Shown here piece after piece: positions 1 through 15,572 of a DNA stretch of 22,210 nt. Below the pieces are notes generated by a model that was not told where the DNA came from, ran no database searches, and worked only from the letters and a program-made list of their open reading frames with translations. The stretch is taken from positions 1-22,210 of the IMG/VR virus record IMGVR_UViG_3300025671_008344. One strand, 5' to 3'. Each line of letters starts with the position of its first letter. Within the stretch, counting starts at the first letter, position 1. Position numbers and translations under genes: made by a program. The stretch comes from a virus.

Positions 1-1392
1 TTCTATGGGGTTAAATCTAGAGAGGATGGAGTAAATGGTGATATTTTAGCCCACTATTACCCCTATGGTAAAACCAATATCACTGGTTATAAAATCAGGG
101 AACTTCCAAAAGACTTCCATGTCACAGGACAGATCGAGGGTCTATTTGGTCAGAATCTATTCTCAGGAGCAGGTAAAAGGGTTGTAATCACAGAAGGAGA
201 GATTGATGCTCTCTCTGTAGCCTACGCTATGTATGAGCACTATAAGAAATTCTATCCTGTAGTAGGTATGCCTAGCTCAACAGGCAAGAAAGCTATTATG
301 GAGAACAGAGAGTGGCTTCGTGGTTATGATGAAGTGATCTTAATGCTCGATAATGACCCTGCTGGTGAAAAAGCTTTAAACGAGGTCTGTAAGATCATTG
401 GTATTGATAAAGTAAGGATTGCCAAGATCAAAGAGAAAGACCCTAATGAAGAACTTCTTAAACATGGATGGAAAGAAGTATGCAGGGCAGTATGGGATGC
501 TAAAAAGTGGTGTCCAGCTAATATTCTAGCAGGTGAGCCTCTGTGGGGTCAATACATAGAACAGGAAACTAAAGAGGCTTTACCATTCCCCGCTTGTATG
601 CAAGGTGTTAATCATAAAACGAAAGGAGCTAGACTCGGAGAGATTGACCTATTTATCTCTGGAACAGGAGCAGGCAAGTCAACTATGACCAGAGAAATCC
701 TCTTAGAGTTCCACAAGACTGCTAAAGAAGATGAAGATATTGGAGTTATACCTCTTGAGGAATCCCCGGGAGAATATGTAAGAAAGCTTCTCCAGATGGA
801 AGTAGGTAAGGATTTCGAGGAAAACGAAGTATCTGAAGAGGAAAAGCGAAAAGCTTTTGAGAAACTCTTCTTAGATGAAAAGATTAAAGTTTTAGACCAT
901 CAGGGTTCTGTATCTGATGATACCTTAATGGAAAAGATTGAAACCCTTTGTGTTATGGGTTGTAAATATATTATATTAGATCACCTAACGATTGCTGTAT
1001 CAGAAGCAGAAGGTGATCAGAATAGTGCTGTTGATAAGGTTATGTCTGACTTGCTTAAAATGGTTAAACGACATAATGTCTGGATCGGTTTGATTTCACA
1101 CCTCAGAAAGACGTCAACAGGAGGACAAGCCTTTGAAGAGGGTAAGATGCCCTCAATGGATGATATTAAAGGTTCTGGTTCCGTTAAACAAGTTAGCTTT
1201 CAGATTATTGCTTTTGCAAGAGACATGACTGCTACTAACGAGTTAGACCGTAATAGAATCAGGGTAAGAGTACTGAAGAACAGATTTAATGGTAAAACAG
1301 GTGATGCAGGAGGGGCCATTTATAGTCCTGAGTCTATGAGATTAACTTATGTTGATGTTGACTTTACTGCCGAACCTAAATTGGGAGTCTAA
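1..1392 (+). CDS. Primase-helicase, T7 gp4-like (5' end cut by window)
   Basis: The reading frame is open from base 1 and starts before the window; 463 residues are visible. A TOPRIM primase fold shows as EGEIDAL (visible residues 65-71) and LDNDPAG (about 116-122), the metal-binding Glu and DxD-type motifs. A RecA-type hexameric helicase follows: Walker A SGTGAGKST (about 220-228), the catalytic-glutamate strand LEESP (about 252-256), Walker B YIILDHL (about 323-329) and the ISHLRK motif (about 365-370). This order is that of T7 gp4 and related phage replicative primase-helicases, which unwind DNA 5'-3' and prime the lagging strand. The N-terminal zinc-binding part is not visible. The next gene follows after one base, so it is probably co-transcribed with the AAA+ and dNTP genes. 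The family call is secure. Confidence 0.93.
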   Translation, partial: FYGVKSREDGVNGDILAHYYPYGKTNITGYKIRELPKDFHVTGQIEGLFGQNLFSGAGKRVVITEGEIDALSVAYAMYEHYKKFYPVVGMPSSTGKKAIMENREWLRGYDEVILMLDNDPAGEKALNEVCKIIGIDKVRIAKIKEKDPNEELLKHGWKEVCRAVWDAKKWCPANILAGEPLWGQYIEQETKEALPFPACMQGVNHKTKGARLGEIDLFISGTGAGKSTMTREILLEFHKTAKEDEDIGVIPLEESPGEYVRKLLQMEVGKDFEENEVSEEEKRKAFEKLFLDEKIKVLDHQGSVSDDTLMEKIETLCVMGCKYIILDHLTIAVSEAEGDQNSAVDKVMSDLLKMVKRHNVWIGLISHLRKTSTGGQAFEEGKMPSMDDIKGSGSVKQVSFQIIAFARDMTATNELDRNRIRVRVLKNRFNGKTGDAGGAIYSPESMRLTYVDVDFTAEPKLGV

Positions 1393-1393
1393 A

Positions 1394-3142
1394 ATGGAAT
1401 ACCATCCTATAATTAAAGATAGGGAAGGTTTTAGAAAAGTATTGGAAACAATGACTCGAATCCTTATTATGAATAATCCTGAAGAACATGAGTATTTCTT
1501 GTTCATGGTGGATGCTTATAATCAAGGCGTAGAGGATAAAAAGAAGTTTAATATTGAAGACTTCAAAGACAAAGCTCTAGAGAAGAATGATATCACTGTT
1601 GAAATCATGGATGAACTCCTGAGTAATTGGGAGAAGTCTATTGATTTCTATGAGGTAGCCAAGATCAACCCTCATTTATATGGGTCTCTTGTAATGATCT
1701 ATAATGAGTTAACTTTTGCGTTAGCAGTAAAGAAAGAAGCAGATGCAGAAGAAGCGAAGGGGTCTAACCTTGTTAAGATCCCAAAAGAAGAGGCTAAGAG
1801 TGTAGTTGAAAAGTTCCTTAATGGGACTTGGATCACTGACTTGTTTATTACAAGACCTGCTAAGGTTTTTGTTCCAGCTTATAAAAGCTGTATTAGTTAT
1901 GGTTGTTATAATGTATCTAAGAATCGATCTTTTGCTTACATCGTAGACAACCCTAAAACAGGAACTACGGGTTATATGACCCGAAACGAAGCTATTGAAG
2001 AATGGTTTACAGCACAGCTCAGTGCTTATGCACACTATATCAAATCTAACCAGAAAGTAGAAGAGGAAAATGATAGAGTAAACTTTATCGATAACCTTCT
2101 AAGTGGATTCTCTAAGAGAGAAACTAGTGCTTCTGAGAGGGAATGGTCTGAAGGAGAGTGGGCAGATACTACTTTCACAGGTCCTAATATTCCCGGAGTA
2201 GTATTAAGGGTAGATCCTGTAGAGTTTACTGAATCCGAACTTCAACACATGGCTTCTCTTATTATAGAGACAGAGAAGAACTCTTCCGCCGCTGCGGATT
2301 GTTGTATTGCACCAGATCAGCTTGATATCGGTGGTATTACAATTAATCTTCCTAAGAAAACCACTAGTAATCATCTGACTAGCATTGATCATAGGACATA
2401 CGATTTAGACCTTATTAACATTGACCGTTCTGCAGATGGTCTCGTTAAACAAATTGCAGATGTTATGTCAAGGCCTCTGAATGAAAGACCTGATCTTGTA
2501 TCTTGTCTCTTCTATGGCCCTCCAGGATGCGGTAAGTCTTTGTTAGCTAAGTATATTGGAGAAAGGTTGAACCTGAAGGTGGTCAAGAAGACCTATGCCG
2601 ATCTTCAGAGCATGTATGTAGGTGAAGGTGAAAAAGAATTGCAAGCAGCTTTTGAAGAGGCTAGTAATTCTGGGTCGATTCTCTTGATTGATGAGATTGA
2701 TTCTATTGCAGGTAGTAGAGCTACGGCTGATCGTAACTATGAGAAAACCTTTGTTAATCAGCTTCTTAATGAACTTGATGAGTATAAAGGAATCTTTATC
2801 GCTACGTCTAACCATATTAATTCTATGGATCCTGCAATCATGCGGCGATTGTATCTTAAGCTGAAGTTTGATTTCCTTAGTGAAGAACAGATTCAAGAAT
2901 GTTTTAAGATGTATTTCCCTCGTATGAAGAAACAAAAGCTTTGGTTGGAGAGAGAGAGGGATGCTACTTACTTTAAGTACTTAACTCCCGGTGATTTTAA
3001 GGCTATTCGCGAAGCCCTCGTATTTGAAGAGAGTGTGACTATTGGCAAAGTTAGAGAACTCCTTAAGCAGGAAGTAGAGCTTAAGAAAAAAACTATGCAA
3101 GACATTATTCAAATGGAGAGGCCTACAGGATATGAGCTTTAA
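1394..3142 (+). CDS. AAA+ ATPase (FtsH/p97/Vps4-like ATPase domain), unknown client
   Basis: This 582-residue protein has an AAA+ module in its C-terminal third: Walker A GPPGCGKS (375-382), a pore-loop-like MYVGEGEKE (408-416), Walker B ILLIDEID (429-436), sensor-1 ATSN (470-473) and an arginine-finger region DPAIMRR (479-485). The first 350 residues match nothing I recognise and probably bind substrate or partners. No HExxH protease domain follows, so it is a remodelling or unfolding ATPase rather than an FtsH protease. I chose ATG 1394 because GGGAG (1383-1387) lies 6 nt upstream; the in-frame start at 1349 lies inside the helicase gene. It overlaps the dCMP deaminase gene by 11 nt. Placement between helicase and dNTP genes suggests a role in the replication phase, but the role itself is inference. 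Confidence 0.85.
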   Translation: MEYHPIIKDREGFRKVLETMTRILIMNNPEEHEYFLFMVDAYNQGVEDKKKFNIEDFKDKALEKNDITVEIMDELLSNWEKSIDFYEVAKINPHLYGSLVMIYNELTFALAVKKEADAEEAKGSNLVKIPKEEAKSVVEKFLNGTWITDLFITRPAKVFVPAYKSCISYGCYNVSKNRSFAYIVDNPKTGTTGYMTRNEAIEEWFTAQLSAYAHYIKSNQKVEEENDRVNFIDNLLSGFSKRETSASEREWSEGEWADTTFTGPNIPGVVLRVDPVEFTESELQHMASLIIETEKNSSAAADCCIAPDQLDIGGITINLPKKTTSNHLTSIDHRTYDLDLINIDRSADGLVKQIADVMSRPLNERPDLVSCLFYGPPGCGKSLLAKYIGERLNLKVVKKTYADLQSMYVGEGEKELQAAFEEASNSGSILLIDEIDSIAGSRATADRNYEKTFVNQLLNELDEYKGIFIATSNHINSMDPAIMRRLYLKLKFDFLSEEQIQECFKMYFPRMKKQKLWLERERDATYFKYLTPGDFKAIREALVFEESVTIGKVRELLKQEVELKKKTMQDIIQMERPTGYEL

Positions 3143-3650
3143 TTCAGACGATTCATACTATGAGCTTATGTTTAACAGTATTGATGTCACTATTGGTGAT
3201 CTTATTCGAAAGGAAGATGAAGATGTAGGTTTTCTTATGAATGTATGTGATTTAGTAGCAGCTAGATCAAAAGATAAGAAAACAAAAGTAGGGTGTGTAA
3301 TTGCCCGAGATACTAATATCCTAGCATATGGCTATAATGGAACCCCGCATGGAGCCTCTAATGTAATGAGGGATAAGGGTGGTGTAACACTTCCTTGTGT
3401 TATTCACGCAGAGCTTAATGCTTTAGCAAAACTAGCGAAGTCTACACAATCAGGAGAAGGTGCAACTGCTTATTGCACTCTTCTACCTTGTATCCCTTGT
3501 ACAGTAGCCTTATTTCAGGCGGGTATCAAAAAGATGTACTATGAGACCATCTATCGAGACGATAGTTCTATCGATTACGCGAGGTCCATAGGTTTTAAAT
3601 TAATTAGAGTTGAACGAGAAGGAGACAGGATTGAACTCATACGGTCTTAA
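3132..3650 (+). CDS. Deoxycytidylate (dCMP) deaminase
   Basis: This 172-residue protein is a zinc-dependent cytidine/dCMP deaminase. It carries the HAEL signature (zinc-ligand His and proton-shuttle Glu) and PCIPC, the two-cysteine zinc site. Upstream it has a typical substrate-side segment, KVGCVIARDTNILAYGYNGTP. Such enzymes convert dCMP to dUMP, the thymidylate synthase substrate, and in phages help adjust dNTP pools. The start ATG 3132 has a GGAGAGG-type site (3115-3121) about 10 nt upstream and overlaps the AAA+ gene. It lies immediately before nrdA and nrdB, forming a nucleotide-supply operon. No thymidylate synthase or dUTPase is seen in this window. The length is typical of phage dCMP deaminases. 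Confidence 0.9.
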   Translation: MSFNSDDSYYELMFNSIDVTIGDLIRKEDEDVGFLMNVCDLVAARSKDKKTKVGCVIARDTNILAYGYNGTPHGASNVMRDKGGVTLPCVIHAELNALAKLAKSTQSGEGATAYCTLLPCIPCTVALFQAGIKKMYYETIYRDDSSIDYARSIGFKLIRVEREGDRIELIRS

Positions 3651-5649
3651 TATTGACCTCTCTCGTGATAACCGCTTATCGGAACAGTCTCTCAAGCTTA
3701 TCAAAGCATACTACCTTACAGGTCAGGAGACATCACCACAGGAGGCCTTTGCTAGAGCAGCTTTGGCCTATTCTGCAGGAGACACTGCACTAGCCCAACG
3801 TATCTACGATTACGTGTCTAAGGGTTGGTTCATGTTTTCCTCTCCCATACTAAGCAATGCACCGCTCCCCGGTGAGAAGCATTTGGGCCTACCTATTAGT
3901 TGTTTCTTGTCCTATGTAGGAGACACTATTCCCGATATCACAGGTCATCACGAAGAGACAGCGTGGCTATCAGTTAAAGGAGGAGGTGTTGGAGGACATT
4001 GGGGTAACGTTAGAGGGGTATCTGAAAAGAGCCCTGGCGTGATTCCCTTTATGAAAGTCACTGATTCTCAGATGACAGCTTTTAAACAAGGTAAAACAAG
4101 GAAAGGAAGTTATGCAGCATACTTGGACATCGATCACCCTGACATTTTGGAATTTGTTAATTTTAAAGTTCCAACAGGTGGAGACAGTCATCGTAAGTGC
4201 TTCAATCTATTTAATGCAGTTAACATAACTAACAAGTTTATGTCGGCAGTTAAGGAGAACAAAACTTGGGATCTTATATGCCGTAAAACGAAAGAACCAG
4301 TAGAAACAGTTAATGCTAGAGAATTATGGGAGAGAATTCTTGAAGTAAGGTTTAGAACAGGGTCTCCTTATCTTAATTTTATTGATACTGCAAATTACTA
4401 TCTGCCTAGATCTCAAAGAAAAAAAGGGTTAAGAATTCATGGTTCTAATTTATGTAATGAGATACATTTAGCCACCAGCGAAAAAAGAACAGCGGTATGT
4501 TGTTTGCTATCTACTAATATCGAGAAATACGATGAGTGGAAACATACCTCTATGATAAAAGACCTAGTAATTTTCTTAGATAACGTTCTTCAAGCATTTA
4601 TAGATGAAGCCCCTGATGAGATGTCAAAGGCAGTATTTAGTGCCGAACAAGAAAGATCTATTGGTATTGGAGCAATGGGCTTTCATGCTTATCTAATGAA
4701 AAAGAATATCCCTTGGGAAAGTGAAGAAGCTAGGTCCATTAATGAGGAAGTGTTTAAAACTATTAAGAACTCAGCCACAGCTGCTACAAAGAAATTAGCT
4801 ACTGAAAGGGGTCCTTGTCCCGATGCAGACAATTTTGATCCTGTAAGGAACATGCATTTACTTGCTATTGCCCCTAATGCTAATAGCTCTATCTTATGCA
4901 ATACTACAGCAAGTATTGAACCTATCAAATCTAACTATTATACCCACAGAACTAGAGTAGGCCCTGATGTGGTTATTAATCCATATCTTAAAGCTTGTCT
5001 TGTAGGGTATGGTATGGATAATGAGGAAATTTGGGCATCTATAATGGAAAATGACGGTAGCGTCCAACATCTAGATTTTATGGATGAACACGATAAATTT
5101 GTGTTTAAAACGTCTTTTGAGATTGATCAGGATTGGGTTGTTCAACATGCTGCTGATAGACAGAAATATATTTGTCAAGGCCAGTCAGTTAACCTGTTCT
5201 TCAGATCAGGAGCAGATAGAGCTTACGTAAATAAAGTTCATATGAAAGCTTGGTCTGAAGGTCTCAAAGGATTATATTATCTTAGAACAACAGCAGGAAG
5301 AACAGCAGATAAAGTAGGCAGTAAAGTAGAGCGTGTTGCCTTGAAGAGTGATGATAGAAATATTCTTTATGGCAAAGAGGATTGCCCTTGGTGCGTTAAG
5401 GCATCAGAAATCATGGATGAACTCTTTGGTCCAGAAGGATGGGAGTATGTATCACTAGAGAAAGAAGGGAAGACAGCAGCTCAAGTTACAGGTAGAGACG
5501 TCACTACTGTTCCTCAAATCTATATTGCTGGTGAGTATGTAGGAGGTTATGACGACCTTATTAACTATCTTATCCCTAAAGAAGAAGAGTTTAAACAACT
5601 AGATATGTTGTTAGACGGTGCTGATGAATGCGTAGCATGTGAGGGATAA
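3631..5649 (+). CDS. nrdA: Class Ia ribonucleotide reductase large subunit with internal glutaredoxin domain
   Basis: This 672-residue protein (from TTG 3631) reduces ribonucleoside diphosphates together with NrdB. Visible catalytic features are Cys91 (redox pair partner), NLCNE 273-277 (active-site Asn, thiyl-radical Cys275 and Glu277), Cys290/291 (second redox cysteine) and the radical-transfer pair Tyr549-Tyr550. A glutaredoxin domain follows (about 577-648) with CPWC (585-588), cis-Pro motif TVP (626-628) and GGYDDL, and then the usual C-terminal cysteine pair CVAC (667-670). The reductant is thus inserted between the catalytic core and the C-terminal tail it would reduce. There is no N-terminal ATP-cone, so dATP activity control is probably absent. 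TTG 3631 is preferred over TTG 3610 because AAGGAGA (3619-3625) sits 5 nt before it. It overlaps the deaminase gene by 20 nt and abuts nrdB. Confidence 0.93.
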   Translation: MNSYGLNIDLSRDNRLSEQSLKLIKAYYLTGQETSPQEAFARAALAYSAGDTALAQRIYDYVSKGWFMFSSPILSNAPLPGEKHLGLPISCFLSYVGDTIPDITGHHEETAWLSVKGGGVGGHWGNVRGVSEKSPGVIPFMKVTDSQMTAFKQGKTRKGSYAAYLDIDHPDILEFVNFKVPTGGDSHRKCFNLFNAVNITNKFMSAVKENKTWDLICRKTKEPVETVNARELWERILEVRFRTGSPYLNFIDTANYYLPRSQRKKGLRIHGSNLCNEIHLATSEKRTAVCCLLSTNIEKYDEWKHTSMIKDLVIFLDNVLQAFIDEAPDEMSKAVFSAEQERSIGIGAMGFHAYLMKKNIPWESEEARSINEEVFKTIKNSATAATKKLATERGPCPDADNFDPVRNMHLLAIAPNANSSILCNTTASIEPIKSNYYTHRTRVGPDVVINPYLKACLVGYGMDNEEIWASIMENDGSVQHLDFMDEHDKFVFKTSFEIDQDWVVQHAADRQKYICQGQSVNLFFRSGADRAYVNKVHMKAWSEGLKGLYYLRTTAGRTADKVGSKVERVALKSDDRNILYGKEDCPWCVKASEIMDELFGPEGWEYVSLEKEGKTAAQVTGRDVTTVPQIYIAGEYVGGYDDLINYLIPKEEEFKQLDMLLDGADECVACEG

Positions 5650-6600: not shown

Positions 6601-6633
6601 AACCCCTCGGTGCAATGCCGGGGGGTTTTTATT
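6601..6633 (+). terminator. Intrinsic terminator after nrdB
   Basis: AACCCCTCGG (6601-6610) pairs with CCGGGGGGTT (6618-6627), with one T-G wobble and a 7-nt loop TGCAATG. A run of T (6626-6630) follows. This is a textbook Rho-independent terminator closing the replication/dNTP block. Confidence 0.9.
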
Positions 6634-6895: not shown

Positions 6896-7930
6896 ATGAA
6901 CATTAATCAAGCTCTTAAGATTGTAGAAGCTCAAGTTGAATTCAATGCATCACTTCCAGAAGATGCCAAAGATTCGGAATACTTGGTACCCATGCTGTGG
7001 TCCCTTCCAGGCGAAGGTAAGACCTCTGGTATCAAAACCCTCTGTGACCAGAAAGGTTGGGATTTCCGATCAGTAATCTTTGCTCAATTTGATCCGGGCG
7101 AGCTCGGCGGTTTTCCTGTAATTGATAAAGAGGAAGAACAATATATTCGCTATGCCCCCTTCTACATGAAGAACTTTGATCCAGAAAAGATTACTATTTT
7201 GCTTTTGGATGAACTTCCTCAAGCACCAGTAGCTAATCTTAATATTGCAGCACAATTGGTTAACGAACGAGCTATTGGTGAGCACCGGTTGCCACCTAAT
7301 GTCTTTCCTGTAGGTGCAGGTAATCCTATGTCTGCTCGTGCGGGCACTAACCAGATGCCCTCTCAGCTGAAAGACCGATTTAACCACTTGGAAATTGAGA
7401 CATGTGCTGAAACTTTCCGAGCACACGCTCTTCAACGGGAGATGTCTCCTGTTATTACAGACTTTATTAACAACCGACCGGAGTGGTTGCAGAAATTTGA
7501 TCCGAATCAAAATGCGTCTCCCTCTCCGCGATCGTGGGAGCGTGTTAACTCTATGTTGCAGCTTAACCTTACAGAGGCCCTCCAACGATTCTCTATCGAG
7601 GGGCAAGTAGGCGCGGGTGCAGTAACCGATTTCTTTGGTCACCTTCAAATGTTTGATAAGCTTCCTGATGTGGAGAAAGTAGTATTCGCTAATCCTACTA
7701 GTGCTCCTATTCCGGATCAGCCTGATATCCTTTATGCTCTGTGCTCAAATATGGCCCACAAAGTTACAAAGAAGACAGCTAAGGCGCTTGTAACTTATAT
7801 TCGTCGATTTGATAATGCAGAGTTTGCTGCTTTCTGTGTAAGGGATACCCTTGCTCGTAATGAAGAACTTCGTACTAATCCGGATATTGCTAACTGGATG
7901 GTTAAGGAAGGTAAGGATCTCCTTCTTTAA
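6896..7930 (+). CDS. MoxR-like AAA+ ATPase
   Basis: This 344-residue protein has an AAA+ ATPase core: Walker A SLPGEGKTS (36-44), Walker B ILLLDE (101-106), a sensor-1-like GAGNP (140-144) and a DRF arginine-finger region (160-162). The short N-terminus and the DPGELGGFP segment (66-74) suit the MoxR/RavA branch. Those ATPases typically work with a VWA-domain partner as chaperones for metal-cofactor insertion or complex assembly. Here the VWA partner lies 190 nt downstream, supporting the call. Codon use is unlike the neighbours: 16 of 17 Arg codons are CGN, and some lines are about 50% G+C. That suggests high expression or a separate origin. The target is unknown. Confidence 0.85.
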   Translation: MNINQALKIVEAQVEFNASLPEDAKDSEYLVPMLWSLPGEGKTSGIKTLCDQKGWDFRSVIFAQFDPGELGGFPVIDKEEEQYIRYAPFYMKNFDPEKITILLLDELPQAPVANLNIAAQLVNERAIGEHRLPPNVFPVGAGNPMSARAGTNQMPSQLKDRFNHLEIETCAETFRAHALQREMSPVITDFINNRPEWLQKFDPNQNASPSPRSWERVNSMLQLNLTEALQRFSIEGQVGAGAVTDFFGHLQMFDKLPDVEKVVFANPTSAPIPDQPDILYALCSNMAHKVTKKTAKALVTYIRRFDNAEFAAFCVRDTLARNEELRTNPDIANWMVKEGKDLLL

Positions 7931-8139
7931 TGAGGGCATTATGGATTGAGATTAAGGATTTTCCTTCAGCTCAAATCCCTAAGATTGATGAACAATCCCT
8001 GTTTTGGGCGTATGAAAGTGCGCCTAAATCGGGGAGGTTTGTTATAGATAGGGGAAGACATACTTTTTATGTATGGGAAGACGAGCTAAAGAATCCTTGG
8101 ATTAAAATACTAATGGAGTTAAAATGGATCCACAATTAA
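7930..8139 (+). CDS. Unknown 69-residue protein between MoxR and VWA genes
   Basis: ATG 7930 overlaps the MoxR stop by one base, and the gene end overlaps the VWA gene by 16 nt, so translation is probably coupled across all three. The product is soluble and rich in aromatic residues (FWAYES, FYVWEDE, a final LKWIHN). It has no motif I recognise. Its place inside the MoxR-VWA pair suggests a small subunit or adaptor, but only by position. Confidence 0.65.
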   Translation: MRALWIEIKDFPSAQIPKIDEQSLFWAYESAPKSGRFVIDRGRHTFYVWEDELKNPWIKILMELKWIHN

Positions 8140-9374
8140 AAGTAAGTAGGGCTGTGACTTGGATGTCATTTAAGAAGCCCTTCTTTGGTTCTTGTTTGAT
8201 GCAACTTGGAACTAAGGAGAAAGACCTAGGGGGTTGTTATGGCGCTACGGATGGCACTCATATCTACTGGGATAGGGATGCGATGGGGAGACTTCAGACA
8301 GAACCTGAAGTGCGTTATGTTATGGCACATGAGACCATGCATGTAGTTCTGTTTCACTGTGAAATCTTTAAGCATCCTGAGAAATGGGATCTTGATGTAG
8401 CTAACGTAGCTATGGATTGGTCTATTAACTGGGAACTGGATACTAACTGTTATGGTGAAATGGTTCGACCTAGTGATATGATTATTGATCCCACAGGGGA
8501 AACTAATGGTTGGCATTGGCAGGAAATCTATAAGTTCTTGATGAATATTAAGAACGATAATCCTCGACCATTTCAAGGAACCCCGAAAGAAGGCAAGGGT
8601 AAAGGAGGTAATGATCCCCAAATCTCTAAACCTAATATGGATAAAATCAAGCGTCAACTTGAGAACGCTCAAGGTCACTTGTTGGTTCCTTCACATAAGC
8701 CAACAGATGCAGATATGACTAAGATGCAGAACCGTATTAAAGACGTTACTATCCGTGCAGCTGAAGCAGATAAGAATTCAGGTATCGGGTCTACTCCCGG
8801 TAGTATCCTCCAAATCATCGAGGATATTCGTGAACCAAAGGTTAATTGGGAGGAACTGCTACATAACATTGTAGTATGTAGATACCCGCAAGACTACTCA
8901 TATGCTAGAATGAACCGAAAGCATTTTGGTAGTGATCTTATTCTACCTTCTACTATCGGTACTAAGGCTGGTACTATTTGTTTAGGAATGGATACTTCTG
9001 GTTCTGTAGGACAAGAAGAGATTTCTGCCTATACTTCAGAAATGGCTTGGATTATCAATGAGCTTAAGCCGGATAGAGTAATCATGCTCAGTGCTGATTG
9101 TGGTGATCCTGTTGTTATTGAATTTCCTGCAGGTCATTACTTTGCTCCTAAAGATTTGGAGATTAAAGGAGGAGGAGGAACCTCTTTCCGACCTGTCTTT
9201 AAATATATTGAAGACAATGCTATTAACCCTGATCAAATCATTTACTTTTCTGATATGCTTCTTGGGAGATCAGAAATACCAGAAGAAGAACCTAATTACC
9301 CCGTTACCTGGGTCTGCTCCCGAGACAGGGGTTATGTACCTCCTTTTGGTGAATTTATTAGACTGGAGGTTTAA
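8124..9374 (+). CDS. VWA-like protein with HExxH metallopeptidase-type N-terminus
   Basis: This 416-residue protein resembles the putative metallopeptidase plus VWA-like family (DUF2201 type). The N-terminal domain has MAHETMH (67-73), an HExxH zinc site, with a further His78. The C-terminal domain has the MIDAS start DTSGS (290-294) and a later GGGTSF segment fitting the MIDAS threonine. The linker (about 150-220) is charged and low in hydrophobics. Such proteins occur beside MoxR ATPases, and together they form chaperone-like pairs. ATG 8124 has GGAG (8115-8118) 5 nt upstream. Whether the HExxH domain cleaves protein is unknown; in many family members peptidase activity is only predicted. 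No signal peptide is present, so it acts in the cytoplasm. Confidence 0.85.
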   Translation: MDPQLKVSRAVTWMSFKKPFFGSCLMQLGTKEKDLGGCYGATDGTHIYWDRDAMGRLQTEPEVRYVMAHETMHVVLFHCEIFKHPEKWDLDVANVAMDWSINWELDTNCYGEMVRPSDMIIDPTGETNGWHWQEIYKFLMNIKNDNPRPFQGTPKEGKGKGGNDPQISKPNMDKIKRQLENAQGHLLVPSHKPTDADMTKMQNRIKDVTIRAAEADKNSGIGSTPGSILQIIEDIREPKVNWEELLHNIVVCRYPQDYSYARMNRKHFGSDLILPSTIGTKAGTICLGMDTSGSVGQEEISAYTSEMAWIINELKPDRVIMLSADCGDPVVIEFPAGHYFAPKDLEIKGGGGTSFRPVFKYIEDNAINPDQIIYFSDMLLGRSEIPEEEPNYPVTWVCSRDRGYVPPFGEFIRLEV

Positions 9375-9376
9375 AT

Positions 9377-10534
9377 ATGCAATATGTTAATATCCATGAA
9401 TTTGCTAGGGATGAAGAGTTCTATGATAGTATAGATAACCTTTTTGGGTGGTCTAGAAATATTAGAAGTGATTGTTGGGATCAATATTTCGATATAAAGA
9501 AAGGTTCTATTCTGAAGAAATGGAATTCTGCTATTAAGCTCGCTAGAACCAATGTGCAGTCTTTGCTTGATTTCTATACAATGTTTGCCCAGCTTGATCC
9601 TGATGATGTTAAAAATGCAATTCAAAATATAGTTGATTTTGAAAGGAGAAAGCTTGAAGAGAAAGCTATTGAGAGGAATGATATCCAAAAGGTGCTAGAA
9701 TCTGCAAACCATTTATGGAATCAAGGAACTCATTTTAGCTACAGCTGGTCCTACTCCGTATCACATGAGATTGATGATATAATAGAACCGGTTCTTCAGA
9801 AAAAAGATCCAGATCTTGAGAAATACGGGTCGGATAACATGATTAGTCATAGCCTACGTGCCTGTATGTGTAAACTATCTGCATTGATCCTTCTAGAAAC
9901 TGTAGGTTCCCTTCCTATCTTCTCAGAAACTAAGGAGAAGGCCAGAGCACAGGTAGAAGCCTTGGCTAGATTTTCTTATGATGTTAAACCTTCTGCCTAT
10001 CACTGTCAAAATGTAGAATTTAAGTTAAGACTTGACGGAGAGACTGAGATAACCGCTAGAGAATGGGGAGGGGAAGAGAGCAGAGATCCTGGCGAGTTAG
10101 AATGTAAGTTTAGTTACAAAGATTTGGCAAAAGGCTATGATAGTTTTAGAGAGAAAGGTATTCCTTTGCTAGGTAGCTATGTTTGCAGATTCCAAGGTAT
10201 GCGTTCTTTGATCATTAGCGTAGAAGAAGTTGACCCTGATGATGTTGAGAAAGCGGCTAAGAAACTTAGGGTAGAACCTGATCTTAGAGACGTAAAGGTT
10301 TACAAAGTAACGGAAGGTTATTCTTTCAAGCAGAAAAAACTTGGAGGACCTTGGAGTGCTTATAATCTAACAGTTCATAAGATACCTGAAGATAGTCACT
10401 TTGTTGTAGAAGGTAATAAGCCCCCTCAAAGTGAAGAGGGTTATACTATTTTAACCAGTCTTGGTAGAGCCTTGGGTAGTAGAAATAAGAAAACTCAAAA
10501 CAATATCATTTCTATGATGAATTTTGATGACTAA
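9377..10534 (+). CDS. Unknown 385-residue protein, last large gene of MoxR-VWA block
   Basis: It starts 2 nt after the VWA gene, with GGAGG (9365-9369) 7 nt before the ATG, so it belongs to the same operon. No family is recognised. The first half is helical-looking and acidic/aromatic (a helix near 85-125, a WNQGTHFSYSWSYS stretch at about 114-127). The second half is mixed, with likely beta strands and many Lys/Asp/Glu. No membrane span or signal peptide is seen. Position makes it a candidate client or third component of the MoxR-VWA machinery. A structural role is also possible. Confidence 0.75.
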   Translation: MQYVNIHEFARDEEFYDSIDNLFGWSRNIRSDCWDQYFDIKKGSILKKWNSAIKLARTNVQSLLDFYTMFAQLDPDDVKNAIQNIVDFERRKLEEKAIERNDIQKVLESANHLWNQGTHFSYSWSYSVSHEIDDIIEPVLQKKDPDLEKYGSDNMISHSLRACMCKLSALILLETVGSLPIFSETKEKARAQVEALARFSYDVKPSAYHCQNVEFKLRLDGETEITAREWGGEESRDPGELECKFSYKDLAKGYDSFREKGIPLLGSYVCRFQGMRSLIISVEEVDPDDVEKAAKKLRVEPDLRDVKVYKVTEGYSFKQKKLGGPWSAYNLTVHKIPEDSHFVVEGNKPPQSEEGYTILTSLGRALGSRNKKTQNNIISMMNFDD

Positions 10535-10869: not shown

Positions 10870-11220
10870 ATGGAAACAATGCAAGAAAACATTATGCTCA
10901 TTACACCTAATACAGTGGATACTAATGTATCCCATCTGGGTAATGAGGTTTGGGTAACAACACCTTGGGATATGGATGAGCGGAAAGCTCATAACTTTAT
11001 TGATGGTGTTATTAGTCTTCATAATCACAAGAAAGAGAAGGCTTATTGTGTAGGACGTATTATCGATGTTATTAGTCTTGGTAATGGTGATTGGGCTCGT
11101 AATCGAGTAGCATTCATCTTTGAGCGTCATCCTAATGCGGTTCTTAATCCGGATGATATTCGTCGTAAAGCCAAGTTTAAAGATACTCTAACAGAATCCC
11201 ATGAACAAGTGAGGTATTGA
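10870..11220 (+). CDS. Unknown 116-residue protein
   Basis: It starts one base after the previous stop, with an AGAGG ribosome site (10859-10863). The product looks like a mixed alpha/beta soluble protein with a central DGVISL...IDVISL near-repeat (about 46-51 and 65-70). The repeat reflects a 12-bp identical stretch, 60 nt apart. Seven of eight Arg codons are CGN, unlike most neighbours but like the MoxR gene, which suggests strong expression. No family is recognised. Confidence 0.65.
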   Translation: METMQENIMLITPNTVDTNVSHLGNEVWVTTPWDMDERKAHNFIDGVISLHNHKKEKAYCVGRIIDVISLGNGDWARNRVAFIFERHPNAVLNPDDIRRKAKFKDTLTESHEQVRY

Positions 11221-11540
11221 TGGAAGTTCCATCTGATGAAAAAGTGAGGGACACCGTTGTAGATGTAATGGTGTCCTTCTTGAAAGATAAAGTATATGTT
11301 GATCAAGAAGTTCCTGAAGAGGAATTAGTACATACTTGTTATCTATATTATGATCTGGTTAATACGGCTAAAGAAGAAGTTCTCGAAACTCTTGATAAAG
11401 AAATGAGAGCAGCCGCTAAAAGCGCCTTTAGTAAAGCAGCACCTATTGATGCTTCTAATCCGGATCAGGTTGATCTTGCTGGAGGACCTAGGGCGGTTGA
11501 TAACCAAACAGGTTTTAATCTAGACAGGAAAGATGATTAA
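11220..11540 (+). CDS. Unknown 106-residue acidic protein
   Basis: ATG 11220 shares its A with the preceding TGA, and GAGG (11211-11214) supports this start over the in-frame TTG 11217. The product has an acidic helical N-terminus, an Ala/Lys-rich helix (EMRAAAKSAFSKAA, about 61-74) and a disordered C-terminal tail rich in Asp, Asn and Gly. It overlaps the next gene by one base. No family is recognised; nearby coupling suggests it is expressed with the two genes around it. Confidence 0.6.
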   Translation: MEVPSDEKVRDTVVDVMVSFLKDKVYVDQEVPEEELVHTCYLYYDLVNTAKEEVLETLDKEMRAAAKSAFSKAAPIDASNPDQVDLAGGPRAVDNQTGFNLDRKDD

Positions 11541-12754: not shown

Positions 12755-13183
12755 ATGAGTTTACTAGAAAGAATTATGGAGCATGAGGGATTCCGTCCAA
12801 GACCCTATCAATGCCCTAATGGAGTATGGACTATTGGACACGGATTGACGTATCTAACTAAAGAAGAATCCGAACATATTGTTAAAGGAAGGATCATTAA
12901 GCTGATGTTACATCTTAGAGATAGGCATAATGATTGGTTGACTCGTCACTATACAGATGAGGGTCAAGAAATTCTATTAGGAGTTATGATTGAAATGTGT
13001 TTTCAGATGGGTATTAGGGGTTTTCACAGGTTTGTGAATACCATTGCTTATCTAAAGAAAGGACAACCAGCAGAAGCAGCAGTAGAGATGTTAGACAGTT
13101 TCTGGGCTCGATCTGATTCACCTAGTAGAGCTAGGGAGCTCTCTGACATTGTTATGGGGGTTGAAGATCACCTGAGAGGATAG
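12755..13183 (+). CDS. Endolysin, T4-lysozyme type (GH24)
   Basis: This 142-residue muramidase hydrolyses the MurNAc-GlcNAc bond of peptidoglycan at lysis. The N-terminal active-site region HEGFRPRPYQCPNGVWTIG aligns number for number with T4 lysozyme: Glu11 is the catalytic acid, position 20 is Cys instead of Asp, and Thr26 is kept. T4 His31 is Leu here, while a His sits at position 29. Cys at position 20 is familiar in GH24 phage enzymes of the 'Y-x-C-P-x-G' kind, so activity is expected. There is no signal peptide or SAR span, so release needs a holin. AAAGGAG (12747-12753) precedes the start. A two-span membrane protein follows 4 nt later. Confidence 0.9.
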   Translation: MSLLERIMEHEGFRPRPYQCPNGVWTIGHGLTYLTKEESEHIVKGRIIKLMLHLRDRHNDWLTRHYTDEGQEILLGVMIEMCFQMGIRGFHRFVNTIAYLKKGQPAEAAVEMLDSFWARSDSPSRARELSDIVMGVEDHLRG

Positions 13184-13394: not shown

Positions 13395-13481
13395 GCTCAG
13401 GTGGTGGAATTGGTAGACACAACAGACTTAAAATCTGTCGATATTAATATCGTGAGGGTTCGAATCCCTCTCTGAGCACCA
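13395..13481 (+). tRNA. tRNA-Leu (anticodon UAA)
   Basis: An 87-nt tRNA with all arms. The acceptor is GCTCAGG (13395-13401) with TCTGAGC (13471-13477, last pair G-T). The D-arm carries GGTAGACAC. The anticodon stem is ACAGA/TCTGT around loop CTTAAAA (anticodon TAA). A long variable arm, CGATATTAATATCG, is typical of Leu tRNAs. The T-stem is GAGGG/CCCTC with TTCGAAT, discriminator A, and CCA encoded at 13479-13481. It reads TTA/TTG codons, which are frequent in this A+T-rich genome. It is inserted 3 nt after the holin candidate. Confidence 0.97.
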
Positions 13482-13491
13482 AAGGATAAAT

Positions 13492-14073
13492 ATGACAAGT
13501 ATACTTGAAGAACACGGAATTAAACATAGTAGAAGTCAAGAACTCATTGATTTCGCATATACATTTGCAAAACATGCACATGGAGAACAAAAGAGGAAGT
13601 ATACAGGAGAACCTTATATTAACCACCCTGTAGCTGTAGCTAAGATTGTAGCTAGTGTTACAGAGGATATTGATATGATCTGTGCTGCGCTTCTCCATGA
13701 TGTTATTGAGGACACTCCTTACCAGTATTATGATATCAATCTTAAGTTTGGTTTGAGAACTGCCCAAATGGTTTTAGGTCTCACAGAATTCTCTATTAAA
13801 GAAGATGGGAATAGGTTTATTAGGAAGGAGCTAGATAGGCGATACCTGTCTAGGCAAGAGCCTAATGTCCAAACTATTAAGACAGCAGATATGATTCATA
13901 ATGCAGAAGACATTATGCAGCATGATCCTAATTTTGCAAAAGTGTATCTTAATGAAATGAGAAGGCTTCTACAAGTTATGAATAGAGGCAATAAAGAGCT
14001 TTATGCTAAAGCCTCAGAAATAGTAGAGAGAGGCCTTATGGAGTATGAAATCGAAATCAAAGAAAAACACTAA
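13492..14073 (+). CDS. HD-domain (p)ppGpp hydrolase-like protein
   Basis: This 193-residue protein matches the hydrolase half of RelA/SpoT and the stand-alone MESH1-type enzymes. Motifs are RKYTGEPYINHP (35-46, first metal His45), LLHDVIEDT (67-75, HD and ED pair) and KTADMIHN (130-137, Asp133). These are the manganese-binding His/Asp set of alarmone hydrolases that remove the 3'-pyrophosphate of (p)ppGpp. There is no synthetase, TGS or ACT domain, so it is a small alarmone hydrolase. A phage would use it to lower ppGpp or block alarmone-based defence; this is inference. AAAGGA (13481-13486) precedes ATG 13492 and overlaps the final A of the tRNA. A related nucleotide substrate cannot be excluded. 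Confidence 0.85.
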   Translation: MTSILEEHGIKHSRSQELIDFAYTFAKHAHGEQKRKYTGEPYINHPVAVAKIVASVTEDIDMICAALLHDVIEDTPYQYYDINLKFGLRTAQMVLGLTEFSIKEDGNRFIRKELDRRYLSRQEPNVQTIKTADMIHNAEDIMQHDPNFAKVYLNEMRRLLQVMNRGNKELYAKASEIVERGLMEYEIEIKEKH

Positions 14074-14188: not shown

Positions 14189-14450
14189 AGTGGTAATCCT
14201 GATGTTTGTAGTAGGATTAATAGGGTGTTCTACAGGCGGGGGAAATTATCTCAAGTCTCCATGCCCTCCAATTGAATATACTATGATGGGGGGATCAATG
14301 GTTCCTACTCGTACATACTATAGTACAATTGAAAAAAGAAAATGTGAAACATACCTTAGATCAATAGAGGTAGAGGCGAAACAATATCGCTTACAACAAG
14401 AGATGAGGAAATATAATGAAAGAAGAGAAGCTAACGGAAACGGTATATAA
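14175..14450 (+). CDS. Small lipoprotein, 91 residues
   Basis: The N-terminus is a lipoprotein signal: MRIIKVVILM, a hydrophobic core, then lipobox LIGC with the lipidated Cys18, followed by STGGG. The mature part (about 74 residues) has two more Cys and a charged helical C-terminal half (about 50-86). Phage lipoproteins of this size can be outer-membrane spanins, superinfection-exclusion proteins or receptor blockers. The proline content is too low to call an Rz1-type spanin and no matching i-spanin lies beside it. It overlaps the ClpP-like gene by 35 nt. Function open. Confidence 0.7.
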   Translation: MRIIKVVILMFVVGLIGCSTGGGNYLKSPCPPIEYTMMGGSMVPTRTYYSTIEKRKCETYLRSIEVEAKQYRLQQEMRKYNERREANGNGI

Positions 14451-14994
14451 TCGTCCGGGAAAGATTCTTACAGATAGTGGGGTTTTGTTATTGGTAGGCG
14501 AATTTAATAACGAGAATATTCTACCTATTATCGCTAGAATCATGGAGTTTAATCTTATGCCGGAGGGTGTAAGGCCGGAATTTATTACTTTAATTATTAA
14601 CTCCCCCGGTGGTTCGGTTTCTAGTATGTTCCAGTTAGTAGATGTTATGAAAAGTAGTAAAATCCCAGTTCATACAGTAGGACAAGGTTTTGTCGCTTCC
14701 TGTGGTATTATGACCCTAATGGCAGGCGAGCCGGGACATCGTTCTGCTACTCACAATACAACTATTATGAGCCATAGTTGGAGTTCAGGAACACAAGGGA
14801 CATCTTATGATTTAGAAGCTTCGGTTAAGCATCACGATTTCCTAACTGAGAAAATGATTAATCATTATAAGAAGTGTACAGGCAAATCAGAGAGTTATAT
14901 TCGTAAACATCTGGTATTACCTACAGATATGTATTTAAGACCTGAAGAGGCTTTACAACACGGCATTATTGATGAAGTTAAGGAGACATACTAA
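14416..14994 (+). CDS. ClpP-like serine protease
   Basis: This 192-residue protein has the ClpP fold and triad: NSPGGSV (62-68, oxyanion loop), nucleophile Ser95 in GFVASCG (91-97), His120 in IMSHSWSS (117-124) and Asp171 in LPTDMYL (168-174). The length matches ClpP, but the sequence is diverged from housekeeping ClpP. In phages, ClpP-like enzymes often serve as capsid maturation proteases, but no capsid, portal or scaffold gene is near here. Alternatives are a decoy or partner for host Clp ATPases, or targeted proteolysis of host proteins. No Clp-type ATPase lies adjacent; the FtsH/p97-like AAA+ protein at 1394 is far away. The start overlaps the lipoprotein gene in another frame. Confidence 0.88.
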   Translation: MKEEKLTETVYNRPGKILTDSGVLLLVGEFNNENILPIIARIMEFNLMPEGVRPEFITLIINSPGGSVSSMFQLVDVMKSSKIPVHTVGQGFVASCGIMTLMAGEPGHRSATHNTTIMSHSWSSGTQGTSYDLEASVKHHDFLTEKMINHYKKCTGKSESYIRKHLVLPTDMYLRPEEALQHGIIDEVKETY

Positions 14995-15191: not shown

Positions 15192-15572
15192 ATGCCTTTG
15201 GAAGTAGTAACATTTTGTCTAGCGGTAAACATGTATTATGAAGCTAGAAGTGAGCCTTTAAAAGGGCAAGTAGCAGTAAATCAAGTAGTTCAAAATAGAA
15301 AAGAAGATCCTCGGTTTCCTGATAACGAATGTGATGTAATTACTCAACCGGGGCAGTTCTCTTGGTATTGGCAAGGAAGGGATTACTTCCCTCTTAAGGA
15401 AACAGAGTCTTGGGTTCAGGCAGCTAAACTAGCTAACCTAATGGCTACCTATAGTTTCCAAGATATTACGGATGGAGCGCTATACTACCATGTTAAAACA
15501 GAAGATTGTAATCATCCCGGTAAGATTATAGGCTCTCATATATTTAGTAAGGAATATTATGGAAGACATTGA
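15192..15572 (+). CDS. Cell wall hydrolase, SleB-like (Hydrolase_2)
   Basis: This 126-residue protein consists only of the SleB-type lytic transglycosylase/amidase-like domain. It has NMYYEARSE (13-21, catalytic Glu17), GQVAVNQVVQNR (25-36), a FP...C region (42-47), GQFSWYW (54-60) and a C-terminal ALYYH stretch. The family cleaves peptidoglycan in spore cortex and, in phage and bacterial versions, vegetative wall. No signal peptide is present, unlike most bacterial SleB proteins. It may help lysis with the GH24 enzyme, or be a virion-associated hydrolase. AGGAGG sits just upstream of ATG 15192. The last 14 nt overlap the next small gene. Confidence 0.85.
   Translation: MPLEVVTFCLAVNMYYEARSEPLKGQVAVNQVVQNRKEDPRFPDNECDVITQPGQFSWYWQGRDYFPLKETESWVQAAKLANLMATYSFQDITDGALYYHVKTEDCNHPGKIIGSHIFSKEYYGRH

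Follow-up and report, generated by a model that had tools for sequence, protein, structure and literature searches.

The window (the whole stretch of DNA analysed here, 22,210 bases) is the entire IMG/VR record IMGVR_UViG_3300025671_008344, likely a fragment, and was compared with more than 100 related virus fragments. On its plus strand, behind a strong terminator, lie genes for a MoxR-type ATPase, a protein of 69 residues, a protein with HExxH and VWA motifs, and a protein of 385 residues, hereafter u385:

6601..6627, plus strand: strong intrinsic terminator, 12-pair stem and T tail, between the nrdB and MoxR units
6896..7930, plus strand: MoxR-type AAA+ ATPase, 344 aa, PHROG 1297
7010..7024, plus strand: Walker A GEGKT of MoxR, K42 invariant in 83/83
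7208..7213, plus strand: Walker B D105-E106 of MoxR, invariant in 83/83
7930..8139, plus strand: gene of the 69-residue protein, a passenger in a variable slot, with its one homologue in the L100/L101 lineage
8124..9374, plus strand: putative zincin-VWA co-chaperone, 416 aa, DUF2201_N and DUF2201, PHROG 1314
8328..8342, plus strand: HExxH of the VWA protein, H69/E70/H73, invariant in 83/83
8991..9005, plus strand: VWA MIDAS DxSxS, D290/S292/S294, invariant in 83/83
9365..9369, plus strand: Shine-Dalgarno-like GGAGG of the 385-residue gene
9377..10534, plus strand: third component u385, 385 aa, variable helical N-terminal part and conserved alpha/beta C-terminal domain
10016..10531, plus strand: C-terminal domain of u385, about residues 214-385, predicted EEE-H-EE-H-EEE-H, common to the c0 family
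10870..11220, plus strand: 116-residue neighbour gene, syntenic in five close relatives
11217..11540, plus strand: 107-residue neighbour gene, syntenic in seven close relatives

Rechecking the four open reading frames returned exactly the borders first described, with overlaps of 1 and 16 nt and a gap of 2 nt. The original prediction had read this spacing as the sign of one coupled module; the tightness is real, but it is not special to these genes, as 34 of the window's 41 pairs of adjacent genes overlap or are separated by at most 10 nt. Close packing being the norm of this genome, overlaps alone are no argument for a dedicated module. Shine-Dalgarno-like sequences precede the VWA gene and the 385-residue gene, one each, and the 69-residue gene starts at TAATG without such a sequence at the usual distance; it alone looks dependent on translation from upstream. 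The four-gene order, which had been proposed as something to seek in other phages, gave no match in a DNA-level search of phages with the four-gene stretch.

Further genes of the window encode a ribonucleotide reductase large subunit with a C-terminal glutaredoxin domain (3610-5649), an AAA+ ATPase whose long N-terminal part has no family and which is conserved at 38-44% in eight relatives (1349-3142), a ClpP- or head-maturation-protease-like protein that seven relatives have in synteny at 51-66% identity (14416-14994), two different cell-wall hydrolases, of the phage lysozyme and Hydrolase_2 types (12755-13183 and 15192-15572), and an HD_4 phosphohydrolase, possibly a nucleotide or alarmone hydrolase (13492-14073).

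Family matches bear out the earlier assignments of the MoxR, HExxH and VWA parts. MoxR matches phrog_1297 (E 4.6e-70), with a weak match to Pfam AAA_3, and the VWA protein matches DUF2201_N (E 2.5e-24) and DUF2201 (E 1e-17) in Pfam as well as phrog_1314 (E 5.9e-75). An ATPase, a metallopeptidase-VWA protein and their joint encoding are thus all found here, which places the two genes in the phage MoxR-vWA/zincin pair (PHROG 1297/1314) that was named in 2021 as a proposed chaperone/co-chaperone with a suggested part in virion assembly (Iyer et al. 2021, PMC7824862). The earlier view of a chaperone-type pair therefore agrees with what is known of these families; its remark that the role in phages is not settled is right in that the role is unproven, but the question is not untouched, given the virion-assembly proposal. 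Among 50,697 phage records, 705 encode a relative of MoxR and 716 a relative of the VWA protein; N4-like phages, Vequintavirinae, jumbo phages and Roseobacter phage CRP-7 are among the carriers. No VWA relatives were found in bacterial and archaeal genomes with the patterns used. A scan of viral contigs with the single MoxR protein gave no match; a MoxR alignment as query succeeded. In PHROG 1314 and in many phage records the zincin-VWA protein is called “HNH endonuclease”, a label that looks wrong, and looks to be propagating, because Pfam gives only DUF2201_N and DUF2201.

Across 83 MoxR sequences, K42, D105, E106, N143, R161 and R212 never vary, and the window copy has Walker A and B, N143 and R161 intact. 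Likewise, in 83 non-identical VWA sequences the HExxH residues are invariant together with H78, N94, D98 and N102, as are the MIDAS residues, including T353 and D377 (83/83 each). Because these catalytic residues never vary, both the MoxR and the zincin-VWA activities look maintained.

MoxR also stands out in its codons. The original prediction had noticed that its codon use differs from that of its neighbours, and its deviation is the highest of 15 genes tested (z = 4.05); only 1 of its 17 arginine codons is AGA/AGG, and it has no TTA/CTA, ATA or GGA. The same reluctance recurs in relatives: AGA/AGG make up 0-17% of arginine codons in MoxR of seven of eight genomes (30% in L099), and 21-90% in the VWA and u385 genes of the same eight. 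The separate descent once suggested for MoxR is therefore not supported, since the bias repeats across relatives with conserved gene order; the pattern fits translational selection instead, perhaps for a hexamer that is needed in excess. The window carries a tRNA-Leu (UAA) gene at 13395-13481, while MoxR uses no TTA codons.

The 69-residue protein had been put forward as a possible dedicated subunit, a proposal at odds with its distribution. It has a homologue in one other lineage only, L100/L101, where the two align at 34% identity with a z of 10.5 over shuffled sequences. Searches of Pfam, PHROGs, NCBIfam and PADLOC gave it no significant family, and BLAST in phages gave nothing useful. Three relatives (L102, L103 and L106) have just 14-17 nt between MoxR and VWA and no gene there, L099 and L104 hold unrelated small genes, and other relatives have cysteine-rich or other small genes in this slot; in L107 a thioredoxin-like gene (9666-9983, WCGPCK) occupies it. 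By gene content, the 69-residue gene is a passenger, outside the machine proposed below.

The 385-residue protein fared differently. By itself it is hard to place: no significant family was returned by Pfam, PHROGs, NCBIfam or PADLOC, BLAST in phages gave nothing useful, and a single-protein scan of viral contigs found no match. A weak match to the AAA protein at 1349-3142 extends into the P-loop and was judged to be chance. Relatives emerged from gene order, in loci fetched with the MoxR alignment and then the VWA alignment; eight distinct lineages, the window included, reach past VWA, and in 8/8 a u385 relative follows directly, at a spacing of -1 to 10 nt. Identity to the window copy in these lineages is 15-25% for u385, 54-63% for MoxR and 34-44% for VWA, and leave-one-out profile searches nevertheless recover every u385 member (E 1.3e-6 to 4e-53). 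Proteins at 15-25% identity can thus be recognised as one family through gene order and profiles. Divergence is uneven along the third protein, with a mean pair identity of 15% in the N-terminal part, 25% in the C-terminal part and 39% in the last 31 residues.

More distant loci carry, downstream of VWA, a second group of proteins of 244-370 aa, the c0 family, which includes CRP-7 gp16; none of the members tested matched a Pfam family above cut-off or, convincingly, a PHROG. Profile comparison (hhalign) aligned u385 and c0 collinearly at the C-terminus with 43.6 bits, at a probability of at most 75%, all other downstream families staying below 20 bits. In the reverse comparison from c0, u385 was the best non-c0 match. 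A 322-aa protein of L107 is detected by both profiles, each built without it (c0 E 4.7e-5, u385 E 1.3e-6), making it a bridge between them. With L107 left out, two c0 subfamilies took ranks 1 and 2 of 34 non-self families (39.3 and 23.0 bits), the second barely above the background of 21.9 bits set by the next family. Furthermore, separate AlphaFold models from separate alignments both give EEE-H-EE-H-EEE-H (11 elements) after a helical N-terminal part, with good confidence for c0 (pLDDT 87) and weak confidence for u385 (pLDDT 53). The likeness of the two domains is read from profiles and element order rather than from coordinate superposition, because the u385 model is weak and matched nothing in a fold search of its own. 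For the c0 model, a PDB fold search gave no significant match, and a viral fold search gave one, a 321-residue protein of the same length as CRP-7 gp16. Taken together, profiles, bridging sequence and matching predicted topology say that u385 and c0 are one “third component” family, u385 having both the conserved C-terminal alpha/beta domain and the same-strand position downstream of VWA.

This family keeps close company with the pair. Among the 79 MoxR-VWA loci that extend at least 2.6 kb beyond VWA, 68 have a third gene beyond it in the same orientation, and in 40 of these the gap is at most 50 nt, measured with the ORF starts used; several small genes may intervene. Conversely, two scans for the third gene alone returned 67 loci, with VWA upstream in all 54 that could be judged, the other 13 ending too near. 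Many of these contigs are related: clustering the VWA proteins gives 34 groups at 90% identity and 11 groups at 50%. A few other lineages lack the third gene, and no recognisable copy was seen in the N4-like, Vequintavirinae and jumbo pairs examined, where the pair can therefore function on its own. Judged by sequence and gene order, the third component is real and previously unnamed, joined to a pair that was already known, and the earlier idea of the 385-residue protein as a dedicated partner is upheld at the level of genomics.

On balance, we think that the three genes probably encode a phage AAA+ remodelling machine of three proteins. Beyond gene content, residue conservation and linkage, we infer how its parts could work together. 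MoxR would assemble as a hexamer, on which the VWA protein would dock as co-chaperone, like NorD on NorQ, and by the same analogy MoxR should pull on VWA. The conserved C-terminal domain of the third protein would bind the VWA/MoxR complex, its fast-changing N-terminal part presenting the client, which ATP hydrolysis would remodel and the zincin domain may clip. A conserved C-terminus joined to a variable N-terminus fits an adaptor, and the third protein could also be a client. In both the window and CRP-7 the module sits in the replication/nucleotide block, which suggests action in early-middle infection. That the third protein is obligate and directs a phage-specific, zincin-armed MoxR-VWA machine to a chosen client at that stage, possibly with proteolytic processing, is a more tentative proposal, and one we hold to be possible rather than probable.

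Were the third protein instead a client related to the virion or tail, it would be folded, matured or clipped by MoxR-VWA, a role suggested in jumbo phages and inferred in the case of p618/p892 of Acidianus two-tailed virus (ATV). Virion assembly is indeed the role proposed for the pair (PMC7824862), p618 of ATV binds p892 and virion proteins (PMC4124505), and in N4-like roseophages the gp24/gp25 homologues have close by the genes of four virion proteins that mass spectrometry detected (PMC4193335). Yet the replication-block location in the window and CRP-7 speaks against it, as do the CRP-7 module lying on the strand opposite the structural genes and N4 gp24/gp25 being middle genes, and we consider this rather unlikely. 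Early placement would also suit a machine for counter-defence or host takeover, in which the variable N-terminal part recognises host targets; the third protein diverges fast relative to MoxR and VWA, and MoxR-vWA ternary systems are known among bacterial conflict systems (PMC7159879). However, the third protein has no VMAP or other Pfam match and PADLOC defence models found none either (counter-defence proteins would not be listed there), which leaves such a role improbable.

The neighbourhood of nrdA and nrdB, which immediately precede the module in the window and several close relatives, raises by analogy the thought that the module might install or repair the metal cofactor of the ribonucleotide reductase, as NorQD drives metal insertion (PMC13036017). 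The linkage is not conserved, however: in L102 and L107 the stretch preceding the module gave no nrdA/nrdB match, nor did the c0-bearing loci, the annotation of CRP-7 places a B12-dependent reductase elsewhere, and in the window a terminator separates nrdB from MoxR. We rejected this link as highly improbable.

The three-protein machine that we favour shares its core with several known systems. NorQ-NorD, without a zincin domain, and RavA-ViaA, whose ViaA is without a zincin or protease domain, both combine a MoxR AAA+ ATPase with a VWA partner. The mechanical principle is likely the same as in NorQD, in which the VWA protein inserts a finger into the pore of the ATPase and whose target is a cellular metal insertion (PMC13036017). 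NorQD has no third phage protein. The window pair falls outside RavA-ViaA: its MoxR, at 344 aa, aligns over its length with phage MoxR and is too short for the triple-helical and LARA part of the RavA layout (PMC4124505), and its VWA protein has DUF2201_N. ATV has a viral MoxR-VWA pair with further viral partners, p618 binding the VWA protein p892 and virion proteins (PMC4124505); this pair differs in lacking a peptidase domain (PMC7824862), in belonging to an archaeal virus and in having p618 as part of the virion. Bacterial MoxR-vWA ternary systems (VMAP, iSTAND; PMC7159879) likewise join a third protein to MoxR and vWA, but by Pfam theirs is unrelated (u385 has no match, c0 members none above cut-off), and the window has no effector fusions, so it belongs to neither.

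The nearest kin is the phage pair itself (PHROG 1297/1314, N4 gp24/gp25), with the same two families and the same HExxH-plus-VWA architecture, to which the window adds a conserved third component absent from the PHROG and Pfam libraries alike. Hundreds of phages encode this pair, and a third protein that had VWA upstream in all loci that could be judged offers a way in: its binding partner is probably either the client itself or a lead to it. CRP-7, as an isolated phage with the full set, makes the question testable at the bench. Its gp07-gp15-gp16 comprise MoxR (42% identity), VWA (29%) and, directly after VWA, a c0-family member too divergent for BLAST, in the replication block as in the window; unlike in the window, MoxR and VWA of CRP-7 (L014) are parted by seven annotated genes (3416-5056), one of them MazG-like, and the third gene still adjoins VWA.
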